Positions 13,705-21,202 of a stretch of DNA of 34,097 bases are shown here, in pieces. The notes beneath the pieces were generated by a model. That model ran no database searches, was not told where the DNA came from, and worked only from the letters and a program-made list of their open reading frames with translations. Position 1 is the stretch's first letter, and every line of letters begins with the position of its first letter. The DNA lies in NCBI GenBank assembly GCA_012839085.1, contig DUNZ01000149.1, positions 1 to 34,097 of the forward strand, in the 5' to 3' direction. Source of the DNA: Clostridiales bacterium. GTDB lineage: Bacteria; Bacillota; Clostridia; Lachnospirales; Lachnospiraceae. The position numbers and the translations under genes are program-made.

Positions 13705-13800
13705 TAAAACCCCTCCTTCATATTCTAAGATCTATTCTTTAATAATTTTTCTCTTATAATGATTATTATTTATTTAATAATCCTGATTAATAATCTAGCT

Positions 13801-13880
13801 TAATAAGATGATGATCTTCTTAATAAGATGATGAGCTTCTTAATAAGATAATGATCTTCTTAATAAGAAAATGACCTTAT
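13801..13880. repeat. Four 20-bp tandem repeats in the MMPL-TetR divergent region
   Basis: Units TAATAAGATGATGATCTTCT, TAATAAGATGATGAGCTTCT, TAATAAGATAATGATCTTCT and a fourth diverged copy follow head to tail. The first and third units contain inverted halves AAGAT-N4-ATCTT (unit 3 has AAGAT-AATG-ATCTT); the others are partly decayed. The spacing is about two helical turns. The tract lies 97 bp upstream of the MMPL start, where an operator array is plausible. Confidence 0.75.
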
Positions 13881-13913
13881 TTAATAATTCCTATCATCTA
13901 TAATGATTCCTTT

Positions 13914-13998
13914 GTTTACTAAACACGAAGTTGACAAACAATCTTATTTATATTTTAATAACATCAAGATGTTATATCAACAAACAGATATTTAGTAA
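13914..13998. promoter_or_regulatory. Pair of TTTA-N-TAAA palindromes flanking the tetR promoter
   Basis: GTTTACTAAAC (13914-13924) and TTTAGTAAA (13990-13998) are the same short palindrome in opposite orientation, centred about 75 bp apart. One sits just upstream of the tetR -35 and the other in the leader. Related TTGA[CT]AAAC sequences occur beside both. These are candidate TetR operators; the assignment is by symmetry and position only. Confidence 0.4.
13931..13959 (+). promoter_or_regulatory. Promoter of the tetR gene
   Basis: TTGACA (perfect), a 17-bp spacer and TTTAAT (5 of 6). It points toward the TetR gene and is flanked by the palindromes described above. Confidence 0.7.
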
Positions 13999-14071
13999 AT
14001 GTTAGTTGATAAACTTAAATTGTTAAAACGATGGATAAACAACATTTTTATGGGATTTGGAGGTTTTTTAC

Positions 14072-14647
14072 ATGAAGCAGGCTAGGGAGGATAGGAGAGT
14101 AAAATATACCAAGATGGTATTAAAGGAAAGTTTTATCAATCTTTTAGAAAAGAAAGAGATTTCACAGATTACCATCAAAGAAATTTGTGAAGATGCTGAT
14201 ATCAACCGTTCGACCTTTTATACCCATTATACAGATCAATATGATTTGCTAAGAAAGATTGAGAATGAGCTTCTTGATAATGTTAGTGCTCATTTGGCAG
14301 AGCTGGATCATAAGAATAAGAGAATGGATGATATTGCATTGGCTGAGAAAATATTTGACTATATCAAGGAAAATGCCAAGCTGTGTAAGCTACTTCTTAG
14401 TGAGCGTGGAGATTTGAGTTTTCAGAAAAAGATTATGACCTTGGTTTATGATAAAATCATCACAGAATTGACCCATAATAGTAATCTCACCAAGGAAGAT
14501 GCGGAATATGTATACTCCTTTACGATAACAGGGTGTGTTGGAATAGTACAAAAATGGCTAGACGAAGATATGAAAAAGACCTCCCGTTATATGGCGGAGA
14601 TGGTAATTAAGTTAACCATGGGATTGATTCAAACATTTAAAAAGTAG
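14072..14647 (+). CDS. TetR/AcrR-family transcriptional repressor
   Basis: A 191-residue repressor. The N-terminal helix-turn-helix is plain (ISQITIKEICEDADINRSTFYTHY, residues ~30-52), and the C-terminal ~130 residues are all-helical as in TetR ligand-binding and dimer domains. The ORF track begins at TTG 14057, but GGAGGT lies inside that extension and is 8 nt from ATG 14072, which is the better start. It is divergent from the MMPL/heptad operon, the classic layout for a local repressor of an efflux system, and its promoter is flanked by matching palindromes. The inducer is unknown. Confidence 0.92.
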   Translation: MKQAREDRRVKYTKMVLKESFINLLEKKEISQITIKEICEDADINRSTFYTHYTDQYDLLRKIENELLDNVSAHLAELDHKNKRMDDIALAEKIFDYIKENAKLCKLLLSERGDLSFQKKIMTLVYDKIITELTHNSNLTKEDAEYVYSFTITGCVGIVQKWLDEDMKKTSRYMAEMVIKLTMGLIQTFKK

Positions 14648-14714: not shown

Positions 14715-15050
14715 GAAAGGCATATGAAAGATTCGGAAAGACCAATGAAAGATATCAGAAAGTCGTATGAAAGATGTCAGATAGACAAATGAAAGATACC
14801 AGATAGACAAATGAAAGTTTCAGTAAGGCATATAAAAAATATTGGAAAGAAATGTGAAAGATGTCAGAAAGACCAATAAAAGATGTCAGAAAGACCAATA
14901 AAAGATGTCAGAAAGACCAATAAAAGATATCAGAAAGACCAATAAAAGATATCAGATAGACAAATGAAAGATTCAGTAAGACCAATGAAAATATCAGAAA
15001 GGCATGTGAAAGATGTCAGGAAGACATATGAAAAAGATCAGGAAAACACA
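14715..15050. repeat. Tandem array of ~15 degenerate 21-22-bp units
   Basis: The consensus unit is AAAGATGTCAGAAAGACCAAT plus one base. About 15 units run head to tail with no spacers. The central copies (14856-14943) are nearly identical and the outer ones diverge, the pattern expected when the centre is the most recent expansion. Unit lengths of 21 and 22 exclude a conserved reading frame, and the ORF track shows no ORF here. Two further AT[AT]ATCAAGGAAA-like copies 23 bp apart lie before the array, nearer the tetR stop. Confidence 0.9.
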
Positions 15051-15088
15051 GTTAAAATAATTGAAATGATTATTTAGTAATAAAGATG

Positions 15089-15176
15089 AAAGCTTAAGGA
15101 GTCGAGTGTACCGTTATGAAACCCACACCTTTATGGGTTTACATAAGGGTATAAGGACAGCCCCTTAAGCTTTTTA
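15089..15176 (+). terminator. Long composite hairpin with U-tract
   Basis: The outer stem AAAGCTTAAGG / CCTTAAGCTTT (11 bp) encloses a second helix (TACCgTTATG / CATAAgGGTA) and an inner stem AAACCCA / TGGGTTT. It ends in TTTTT. It is a plausible terminator for tetR and the repeat array, but at 85 nt it is unusually long, so a structured small RNA or leader is an alternative. Confidence 0.6.
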
Positions 15177-15190
15177 ATAATATGCATGCT

Positions 15191-15285
15191 TAAATAATAA
15201 ACTTTCCTCAATCATAAGTATTCTTACATAATATTTCTTAAATAAAAACTTTCCTAAATCATAAGTTTTCTTAAATAATATTTCT
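15191..15285. repeat. Two ~47-bp direct repeats downstream of trpB
   Basis: Two adjacent AT-rich copies share ACTTTCCT[CA]AATCATAAGT and ATAATATTTCT with similar spacing (15191-15238 and 15239-15285). They lie between the composite hairpin and the trpB stop; no clear minus-strand terminator for trpB was found. Confidence 0.65.
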
Positions 15286-15370
15286 TTAATAAGAATCATT
15301 CTTTATTCGAGCTAAGCTAAGGCATAAATATCTGATTTTTCTTCTGGTTATAATAGAAAATATAATTGAA

Positions 15371-16585
15371 TTAAAGAAGTTGCTCCCCATAGCCATAATG
15401 CTCAACAACATAGTCGATATCTTTGTCTCCACGGCCACTTAAGTTTACTAGAATCGACCCTTGCTTCATTTCTTTTGCCTTTCTCATAGCATAGGCAACC
15501 GCATGAGAGCTTTCCAGTGCTGGAATTATACCTTCCAGTCTGGAAAGAAGGAAAAAGGCTTCAATTGCCTCTTGATCACTTACCGTTTCATACTGTATTC
15601 TACCCAAGTCATGTAAAAATGCATGCTCAGGTCCAACGGAAGGGTAGTCAAGACCACTGGCAATGGAGTAAACAGGGGCTGGATTTCCATTTTCATCTTT
15701 TAACATAATGCTTTCGAAACCATGCATGATACCTCTTTCCCCATAAGACATGGAAGCGGCGTGATCACCTAAGTTAGAACTTTTTCCTAGAGGCTCTACA
15801 CCGACTAAGTCAACTGGATCCTCTAAAAATGGAATTAACATTCCAGCTGCATTACTACCGCCTCCCACACAGGCACAAACAAGATCTGGTAATAAACCGG
15901 TCATTTCTTTAAATTGATTTTTGGCTTCATAACCAATTACAGATTGGAAATCTCGAACCATAAGGGGGAAGGGATGAGGACCCAAGGCGGATCCAATACA
16001 ATAAATGGAGTCTTTATAATTTTTTGCATAAGATTCAAAAGCAGAATCTACAGCTTCTTTAAGAGTTTTTAAACCATGAGTAACTGGTACCACTTTAGCA
16101 CCTAAAATTTTCATACGGGTTACATTCGGTGCCTGTTTTGCGATATCAACTTCACCCATATGTATCTCGCATTCCAAACCAAAGAATGCAGCTGCTGTAG
16201 CCAGGGCAACACCATGCTGACCAGCGCCTGTTTCAGCAATCAGTCGCTTTTTGCCCATGAATTTGGCTAAAAGACCTTCTCCCATACAATGATTTAATTT
16301 GTGTGCTCCAGTATGATTTAAATCTTCCCTTTTTAAATAAATCTGGGCACCACCAACATAAGTTGAAAGACGTTCGCAGTGATAAACGGGTGTGGGACGA
16401 CCTTGAAATTCTTTTCGAATTCTTCTAAGCTCATTAATAAACTGAGACGAATGGCAGATGGTCTGATAGGCAGCGGATATTTCTTCAAAAGCTGGAATAA
16501 GTTCATCTGGAAGAAAAGATCCTCCGTAATTACCAAAACGGCCATTAGCGTCTGGATAATTTCGTAAATAAGTTCTGTAGTCCAT
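15371..16585 (-). CDS. trpB: Tryptophan synthase beta chain (standalone)
   Basis: A 404-residue PLP enzyme of normal TrpB1 length that condenses indole with L-serine to tryptophan. The PLP lysine is K96 in HTGAHKLNH, the catalytic Glu is E118 in [11 protein letters not shown], the phosphate-binding loop is GGGSNA, and the C-terminal [13 protein letters not shown]-like segment ([17 protein letters not shown]) and NLSGRGDKD are intact. Odd points are [13 protein letters not shown] where most TrpBs have a Gly-rich EPGG or EAAG segment, and His after HKLN. ATG start with AGGAGG 6 nt upstream. There is no trpA or other trp gene beside it, so it may act in indole salvage, or its partner may be elsewhere. 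It has its own promoter, divergent from ddh. Confidence 0.95.
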
Positions 16586-18170: not shown

Positions 18171-20921
18171 ATGAAAAAGTTAGTCGTCGGTATTTTAGCC
18201 CATGTGGATGCTGGAAAAACAACACTGGCAGAGAGTATTCTGTATCAGACCGGTCGTATCAGAAAATTGGGTAGAGTTGATCATAAAGATGCCTTTTTAG
18301 ATACCTATGATTTAGAACGTGCAAGAGGAATTACCATCTTTTCAAAACAGGCTCAGGTTACTTTTGATGATATGGAAGTGTCGCTTTTGGATACTCCAGG
18401 GCATGTGGATTTTTCTGGGGAAATGGAACGAACCTTACAGGTTCTTGATTATGCCATACTAGTAATCAGCGGTAGTGATGGGGTTCAAGGTCATACAGAA
18501 ACCTTATGGAAGTTACTAGGGAGGTATCAGATACCAACCTTTCTCTTTATTAATAAGATGGACTTGGAAGGAACAGACCGCCAGTCCCTTATGATAGAGT
18601 TAAAAAAGAGATTACATGATGGCTGTGTGGATTTTGGAGATGATCAGAATCCTAAGGATTTTTATGAAAATATAGCCTTATGTGATGAAAAATTACTAGA
18701 ACAATATATGGAATTGGAAGAGATTAAAACGCAAGAGATTGCTACAGCCATAGAAGAGAGAAGAATTTTTCCTTGCTATTTTGGTTCTGCTCTAAAACTA
18801 GAGGGCGTTGATGATTTTTTATATGGACTTTCCAAGTATACAAAGTCTAAAAAATACCCGGAAGAGTTTGGGGCAAAAGTATATAAAATAGCTAGAGATG
18901 AACAAGGGAATCGTCTAACTTATATGAAGATTACTGGAGGTAACTTAAAGGTAAAAATGCTTCTATCAGACCATTCTTCGCAATGGGCTGAGAAAGTGGA
19001 TCAAATACGAATATATTCTGGGGTAAAATATGATACCGTAGAAGAGCTAAGGGCAGGGGGAGTTTGTGCTGTAGCTGGACTCAGCAAGACATATCCCGGG
19101 GAAGGCCTAGGTATCGAGTCTGGAACCAATATGCCAATATTGGAACCGGTACTAAATTATCAGCTTTTATTACCTGAGGGCTGCGATCCCGTTACTATGT
19201 TATCCAAATTACGGCAGTTAGAAGAAGAAGATCCTTTATTGCATATTGTATGGTCCAGCCATCTTAAAGAGATCCATTTGCAGTTGATGGGTGAGGTGCA
19301 AATTGAGGTTCTCAAAAGCTTGATCTTGGAACGATTTGGGGTAGAAGTAGAATTTGGAACAGGCAACATTTTATATAAGGAGACGATTGCAGAACCAGTC
19401 GTCGGTGTGGGGCATTTTGAACCTTTACGCCATTATGCGGAAGTACATCTATTGTTGGAGCCGGATGAAGCTGGTAGTGGATTGACCTTTGATAGTAATT
19501 GCAGTGAGGACTCACTGGATCGAAATTGGCAGAGGCTGATATTAACACATTTAGAAGAAAAGGAACATCTTGGAGTTTTGACTGGCTCACCAATTACGGA
19601 TATGAAGATAACTCTCATTGCTGGAAGAGCCCATCAAAAGCATACCGAAGGTGGAGATTTTAGACAGGCCACCTATCGAGCTGTGCGACAGGGACTAAAG
19701 AAAGCAAAGAGTATTCTTTTGGAACCCTATTATGATTATAAATTAGAAGTTCCCTCTGAAATGATTGGAAGAGCCATGTCTGATATCCAACGGATGAATG
19801 GGAATTTTAATCCTCCCGAAATCACAGATGATATGTCCATCCTCACAGGAACTGCACCGGTTGCCAGTATGAGGGGGTATCTTTCAGAAGTTACTGCCTA
19901 TACCAAGGGGAGGGGCAGGCTATTCTGCTCCTTGAAAGGTTATTTGCCCTGCCATAATCCTGAGGAAGTCATAGAAAGTATTGCTTATGATAGTGAACGG
20001 GATTTGGATAATCCAACAGGATCTGTATTTTGTTCCCATGGGGCTGGTTTTCTTGTTCCCTGGAATCAAGTAGAAAATTATATGCATATTGACAATGGCT
20101 ACGATCCAGGAAATCTGCAAGAAAAACGTATAGAATCCTTGAATGAGGCTAAGACCTTATTTCAAGAAGAATGGAAGGACTTATCAAAGACGATTCAAAA
20201 GGAAGGGAAAAATGCCCAGGTTAGCAGTAAAACAAGATCTTATCCGTCTACTTCCTTAGAAGAGGATAAAGAGTTAGAGGATATCTTTGTTCGAACCTTT
20301 GGTCCAATTAAACAAAGGATCAGCCATTCTCAAAATCGTCTAGGATATGAAAAGGCTACAAGGATAGATTTAAGTCAAAGAAAACAAAAGAACAATAATG
20401 GGGACAAGGATTCTAGGAAAGAATATCTGCTGGTTGATGGATATAACATCATATTTGCCTGGGAGGAATTAAGTGAACTTGCCAAGGAGAATATGGATGC
20501 AGCAAGAAATAAGCTGATGGATATTCTTTGTAATTATCAAGGATTTAAACAATGTGTGCTCATTCTAGTCTTTGATGCATACAAAGTAAAGGGTGGAGTT
20601 GGGCAGATAATGGACTACCACAACATCCATGTGGTTTATACCAAAGAAGCAGAAACTGCGGATGAGTATATAGAGAAAGTTACCCATGAAATGGCCAGTA
20701 AACACCAAGTGACGGTTGCCACATCGGATGCATTGGAACAATTAATCATCATGGGGCAGGGTGCAACAAGGCTGTCTGCCAAAGATTTAAAGGAAGAAAT
20801 CATTCGAACCTGGGATCAGATTCAAAGTGATTATTTGAACAAGCAGGCTTCGGGGCGAAGTTATCTGGGGGATCAATTTGATGAAACACTTTTGGAGTTT
20901 TTAAAGAAAGGTTATAATTAA
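18171..20921 (+). CDS. Tet(M)/EF-G-like ribosomal GTPase fused to a C-terminal YacP/Rae1-type NYN nuclease domain
   Basis: A 916-residue fusion. Residues 1-~690 form a Tet(M)/Tet(O)-type translation GTPase: P-loop AHVDAGKTT (10-18), RGITI switch I, DTPGH, NKMD, then domain II, EF-G domains III-IV and a domain V with LLEPYYDYKLEVPSEMIGRA. Tet(M) itself is ~640 residues. After a charged linker (~690-750) comes a YacP-like NYN domain (~752-916). It keeps VDGYN (D756, N759), VFDAYKVKGG (D802), ETADEYIEK (D831) and TSD (D853), the acidic set of NYN nucleases. B. subtilis YacP is Rae1, which cuts mRNA in the ribosomal A site. ATG follows GGAGA. The gene is monocistronic. It probably acts on stalled or antibiotic-bound ribosomes; whether it gives tetracycline resistance cannot be told. 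Confidence 0.92.
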   Translation: MKKLVVGILAHVDAGKTTLAESILYQTGRIRKLGRVDHKDAFLDTYDLERARGITIFSKQAQVTFDDMEVSLLDTPGHVDFSGEMERTLQVLDYAILVISGSDGVQGHTETLWKLLGRYQIPTFLFINKMDLEGTDRQSLMIELKKRLHDGCVDFGDDQNPKDFYENIALCDEKLLEQYMELEEIKTQEIATAIEERRIFPCYFGSALKLEGVDDFLYGLSKYTKSKKYPEEFGAKVYKIARDEQGNRLTYMKITGGNLKVKMLLSDHSSQWAEKVDQIRIYSGVKYDTVEELRAGGVCAVAGLSKTYPGEGLGIESGTNMPILEPVLNYQLLLPEGCDPVTMLSKLRQLEEEDPLLHIVWSSHLKEIHLQLMGEVQIEVLKSLILERFGVEVEFGTGNILYKETIAEPVVGVGHFEPLRHYAEVHLLLEPDEAGSGLTFDSNCSEDSLDRNWQRLILTHLEEKEHLGVLTGSPITDMKITLIAGRAHQKHTEGGDFRQATYRAVRQGLKKAKSILLEPYYDYKLEVPSEMIGRAMSDIQRMNGNFNPPEITDDMSILTGTAPVASMRGYLSEVTAYTKGRGRLFCSLKGYLPCHNPEEVIESIAYDSERDLDNPTGSVFCSHGAGFLVPWNQVENYMHIDNGYDPGNLQEKRIESLNEAKTLFQEEWKDLSKTIQKEGKNAQVSSKTRSYPSTSLEEDKELEDIFVRTFGPIKQRISHSQNRLGYEKATRIDLSQRKQKNNNGDKDSRKEYLLVDGYNIIFAWEELSELAKENMDAARNKLMDILCNYQGFKQCVLILVFDAYKVKGGVGQIMDYHNIHVVYTKEAETADEYIEKVTHEMASKHQVTVATSDALEQLIIMGQGATRLSAKDLKEEIIRTWDQIQSDYLNKQASGRSYLGDQFDETLLEFLKKGYN

Positions 20922-20923
20922 CC

Positions 20924-21006
20924 CTAGGATAAGAAATAAAATTCTAGGATAAAAAATAAAAATTCTCGTATAAGAAATAAATATTCTCGAATAGGAAATA
21001 AATATT
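20924..21006. repeat. Four ~21-bp tandem repeats behind the GTPase stop
   Basis: Units CTAGGATAAGAAATAAAATT, CTAGGATAAAAAATAAAAATT, CTCGTATAAGAAATAAATATT and CTCGAATAGGAAATAAATATT are contiguous and begin 3 bp after the stop codon. The sequence is unrelated to the array behind tetR. Confidence 0.85.
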
Positions 21007-21023
21007 AAAGTCACTAACTACAG

Positions 21024-21179
21024 ATAATGGGGCTGTCGCACTAAATGTGCGACGCCCTTTTTACATTAATGATGTTTTAAATTTAAAAAAATAGCGTGTG
21101 ACTATCCATCCAACAGAGACACGTTCTCACTCGATTGCCGCACATAGCGATTCAATCGTTAAAGCAACAGCCCCATTAT
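21024..21179. repeat. 156-bp segment bounded by 13-bp perfect inverted repeats
   Basis: ATAATGGGGCTGT at the left end and ACAGCCCCATTAT at the right end are exact complements. The interior holds the plus-strand terminator and a small CGATT-g-AATCG-like hairpin. It lies between convergent genes. It could be a paired terminator or a small MITE-like element; no target-site duplication was recognised. Confidence 0.6.
21029..21062 (+). terminator. Rho-independent terminator of the GTPase fusion
   Basis: GGGC-T-GTCGCAC / GTGCGAC-GCCC with one bulged T, then TTTTT. The stem is strong and GC-rich compared with its surroundings. Confidence 0.9.
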
Positions 21180-21202
21180 TTATTTCAAGAGATATATCCT
21201 TT

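Follow-up and report, generated by a model that had tools for sequence, protein, structure and literature searches.

Intergenic minisatellites are described from many bacteria, and as VNTR loci they are used in MLVA typing, for example of E. coli and S. aureus (PMC2884548). Two further systems resemble them. The tandem repeats of the archaeal Borg elements are nearly perfect, vary within populations, and have an A content of 48.4%, compared with 38.4% (PMC9879509). BrickBuilt of Porphyromonas gingivalis is present in 19 dispersed copies with inverted ends and 23-bp direct repeats (PMC4596501). Here we describe a 22-bp tandem array between the convergent genes tetR and trpB of a Lachnospiraceae bacterium. 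It lies in a 34,097-nucleotide stretch (contig DUNZ01000149.1, hereafter the window) of an incomplete (89.9%) 2.65-Mb assembly of 238 contigs (GCA_012839085.1). A literature search for tandem repeats between genes of Lachnospiraceae returned no report that matches.

Results

Structure and uniqueness of the array

A sequence-only reading of this DNA had claimed a noncoding, spacerless array of 15 copies of a 21-22-bp unit between tetR and trpB, with near-identical central copies and decaying edges, and all of this is borne out. According to TRF the array spans positions 14715-15048 with a period of 22, 15.4 copies, 79% matches and a score of 318; its plus-strand consensus is AAAGATRTCAGAAAGACCAATR. 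A wrap-around (cyclic) alignment places 15 units from 14727 onwards, with an incomplete unit ahead of them at 14715, a count that may be too low if identical units were collapsed in the short-read assembly. Four units measure 21 bp and the others 22 bp, with an extra base in the last, degenerate one. The units follow each other head to tail with no spacers between them, which rules out a CRISPR array. The homogenised core (14857-14944) comprises three identical units, starting at 14857, 14879 and 14901, and a fourth at 14923 that differs by one base, while the least alike units of the array share 12 of 22 positions. TRF also returns a second description, in which a 153-bp (7-unit) period covers 14727-15025 in 2.0 copies (83% matches, score 426), indicating a higher-order duplication. 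Each unit in turn consists of two halves of 11 bp that resemble each other, AAAGATRTCAG and AAAGACCAATR. All reading frames of the tetR-trpB gap contain at least 12 stops and the longest stop-free stretch is 50 codons; the array is therefore non-coding. Since first-order Markov shuffles of the intergenic DNA of this genome gave no array with a score of at least 80 in five trials, the repeat is far above chance.

Within its own genome the unit is found at this single place, which excludes a dispersed element as well as a CRISPR or an iteron. We obtained no match in plasmids, no useful match in IMG/VR or in relatives, and no RNA family match in Rfam. A single non-repeated stretch of 50 bp in the relative G013 (L032:914-962) matches the array at 82% and could be either a chance match or an ancestral seed. 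The locus thus shows what characterises a bacterial minisatellite, namely a unit of about 10-100 bp, a single spacerless locus and a unit that is not dispersed.

The tetR-trpB gap

Upstream of the array lies the TetR-family regulator (14057-14647, plus strand; Pfam TetR_C_8, with a DhaS-like match below the cut-off), and downstream, in convergent orientation, trpB for the tryptophan synthase beta subunit (15371-16585, minus strand; TIGR00263, 531.8 bits, cut-off 392). Just beyond the array, positions 15055-15190 have a folding energy of -42.8 kcal/mol (z -5.5) and include a long hairpin (15089-15173) whose outer arms, AAAGCTTAAGG and CCTTAAGCTTT, pair perfectly over 11 bp. This hairpin probably terminates the tetR transcript and may do the same for trpB. 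Since we detected no terminator from the stop codon of tetR up to the array, the tetR transcript probably crosses the array and reaches the hairpin, which, acting as a shared terminator, would place the array in the 3' UTR of tetR. The gap holds a second, unrelated AT-rich array with a 47-bp period (15189-15292, 2.2 copies, TRF).

A cassette of tetR, mmpL and a gene for a coiled-coil-like protein of 513 aa is conserved in relatives. In four of them the gene after tetR reads as rpsU, an assignment made from the sequence and not by a family search, and trpB sits elsewhere, with a different neighbour after trpB in G013. The tetR-trpB junction occurs only in this genome among those compared and thus looks lineage-specific. 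The nearest TrpB is that of Lachnoclostridium sp. UBA5725. Close relatives of this trpB, at 75-80% identity, are also found in Akkermansia, Lentisphaerae, Selenomonadales and Victivallis, which suggests horizontal transfer.

Sister arrays in the window

Three sister arrays in the window have units of similar size (all TRF). One, with a 21-bp unit in 5.6 copies, lies at 1697-1815, and another, with a 21-bp unit in 4 copies, follows an elongation-factor-G-like gene (20924-21006). The product of that gene (18171-20921, 916 aa) carries a C-terminal YacP-like NYN ribonuclease domain; the fusion is conserved as one reading frame in most congeners, whereas in relatives farther away the two parts are apparently separate. 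Farther on, the block 21030-21180, bounded by GGGGCTGTCGCAC and AACAGCCCCATT, is about 85% identical to three other loci of the genome (L051, L142 and L055) and looks like what is left of an insertion sequence or a MITE.

The third sister array (13799-13887), with a 20-bp unit in 4.4 copies and the palindromic core CTTAATAAG, occupies the divergent promoter region between mmpL and tetR. The ribosome-binding site of mmpL is on one side of it and the conserved promoter core on the other, and the array is missing from the otherwise alignable promoter of six relatives, so that the mmpL 5' UTR is probably longer here. The promoter core itself is common to this genome and the six relatives and combines TTGACAAA with a CAAC-GTTG inverted motif. 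Conserved over the mmpL-tetR intergenic regions as TTGACAAA..., CAACA-ACAGATATTTA-TAAATGTTAGTTG (13930-14010), it is a candidate TetR operator.

Intergenic arrays across the genome

We surveyed 540 kb of the same genome, using a TRF score of at least 80, mechanical gene calling and contigs that were not randomly chosen, and found 39 intergenic arrays, a density of 7.2 per 100 kb; together they make up 7.8% of the intergenic DNA in the sample. Leaving out the window, which was itself chosen and holds 6 of them, 33 arrays remain in 506 kb. The same script applied to 24 congeners gave 14 arrays in 729 kb (1.9 per 100 kb; Fisher p = 9e-6). When two relatives were sampled more extensively, the densities were 1.8 (G013) and 4.6 (G024) per 100 kb. 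One array in a congener (G003, L180:5923-6215) consists of about 26 repeats of an 11-bp unit between genes.

The periods vary between 13 and 105 bp, and 22 bp is not favoured. Pairwise comparison of the 39 arrays yielded only three weak matches of 28-46 bp, so essentially all units are unrelated, and by extrapolation the genome would hold roughly 170-190 independent, locus-specific arrays. At L046:13649-13835 a dispersed intergenic element is duplicated in tandem (87 bp); copies elsewhere in the genome (L047, L054 and L147) are 73-87% identical to it.

Of the 42 convergent gaps, 12 contain arrays, compared with 16 of 208 others (p = 5e-4); such a bias would follow if arrays were tolerated at sites where they leave promoters intact. 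Periods divisible by three are found in 12 of 14 arrays within ORFs and in 8 of 39 intergenic ones, a contrast that fits expansion as a general process from which frame-breaking arrays are weeded out by selection. On the purine-rich strand the A content is 46.9% in arrays against 38.9% in intergenic DNA, both figures being inflated by the choice of that strand. The purine asymmetry of the arrays, which at first looked very strong (p = 2e-8), becomes smaller with a control for unit length (median 0.132 versus 0.081, p = 0.0016); the orientation of the purine-rich strand relative to the genes (11 to 5) is not significant. Homologues of mutS, recA and sbcC are present in the genome, which led us to reject the idea that arrays are abundant because mismatch repair, RecA or SbcC is missing.

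Discussion

Origin of the array

We consider it likely that the array is a non-coding minisatellite that arose by tandem duplication and then grew by slippage and/or unequal exchange, neutrally, at a permissive lineage-specific junction. A piece of local intergenic sequence would have been tandemly duplicated to give the first units, and replication slippage and/or unequal exchange between units would have extended them. The result would be tolerated because the genes on either side converge, a probable shared terminator hairpin lies downstream and no promoter is broken. The homogenised core, the decayed edges, the duplication of a block of seven units, the locus-unique unit and the unrelated sister arrays all argue for slippage, which was the first origin proposed by the sequence-only reading. 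With so many independent arrays in the genome, the cause probably lies in a tendency of the genome as a whole to form or retain repeats rather than in something specific to tetR or trpB. With 79% matches the array has diverged, and part of it is old; its long persistence could mean weak selection. Nothing indicates a function of its own. Its copy number may still be unstable today, and the further suggestion that it is a polymorphic minisatellite suitable for strain typing is plausible. Alone the array carries little weight beyond that of a candidate typing marker.

Could the array serve instead as a curved or nucleoid-protein-binding stretch of DNA, in which A-tracts every 11 bp bend the DNA into a superhelix and thus insulate or terminate the transcripts that converge from tetR and trpB? 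Its AA/TT Fourier power at 11.0 bp (15.6) is the highest among 1583 genome windows of 334 bp (background maximum 11.7), and its predicted curvature, calculated with a set of wedge parameters, ranks within the top 3 of the same set. This regularity, together with the high predicted curvature, is unusual, and a purely neutral account does not need it. However, the period is 11.0 and not 10.5 bp, where the power is 0.1, and the array falls only at the 5th percentile when it is ranked against intergenic DNA free of arrays. Of 24 sister arrays, only 2 belong to the most curved 5%; curvature is therefore not a feature that unites the arrays. Moreover, a unit built of two 11-bp A-tract halves produces the pattern automatically, and we treat the bend as a by-product. 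We therefore regard a role as curved DNA as improbable.

It is still harder to see the array as a set of operators or iterons that bind one protein per 22-bp unit in helical register, be it the neighbouring TetR, a plasmid-type Rep or a ParB/ParR-like protein. The 22-bp direct repeats do match iteron arrays in size, and a TetR-family gene adjoins them. The unit starts, however, are incoherent at 10.5 bp per turn (R = 0.17), and this, with the weak power at 10.5 bp and a unit that occurs nowhere else, speaks against the helical-phase protein-binding array that had been proposed from the sequence. The unit is absent from the tetR promoter, where relatives have the different conserved core described above, and has no matches in plasmids. 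In addition, a Pfam scan of 20 window proteins revealed no replication-initiator or partition gene, and some units agree at as few as 12 of 22 positions. Equally unlikely is a transcribed functional repeat RNA or an element of the tetR 3' UTR: the probable read-through of tetR to the hairpin would allow it, but the array folds no better than shuffles (z -1.4), matches no RNA family and has no counterpart in the relatives searched by which its conservation could be judged. Least probable of all, a miniature inverted-repeat element carrying a minisatellite, as BrickBuilt does with its spacerless intergenic 22-23-bp direct repeats (PMC4596501), is very hard to reconcile with a single array copy in the genome and with the lack of terminal inverted repeats bracketing it.

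Comparison with known systems

The minisatellite reading makes the array an ordinary kind of feature. Like the VNTR loci used for typing, it has a unit of about 20 bp, repeated head to tail, and is intergenic, imperfect and locus-specific; unlike them, it is known from one genome, and that genome has unusually many such loci. With BrickBuilt it shares spacerless direct repeats between genes, but it is single-copy and has no inverted ends (PMC4596501). A genome with many one-of-a-kind intergenic arrays, several times more than in most relatives, is mildly interesting and more notable than the array itself.

This abundance invites comparison with the Borg arrays (PMC9879509). In both cases many independent arrays with locus-unique units, often of about 20 bp, are found per genome; they are enriched in A, have periods divisible by three within ORFs and are rare in relatives. 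In contrast to Borg repeats, the arrays described here are located on a bacterial chromosome, have imperfect units and are mostly intergenic. Tentatively, and at odds that we would put well below even, an active genome-wide process comparable to that inferred for Borgs may repeatedly make locus-unique minisatellites from A-rich intergenic sequence in this Lachnospiraceae lineage. If so, the tetR-trpB array would be one of its products, and intergenic regions should differ extensively among strains. The question of how tandem repeats form has been raised and left unanswered for Borg elements; the array excess provides a bacterial chromosome in which their formation can be compared with close genomes that mostly lack such arrays.
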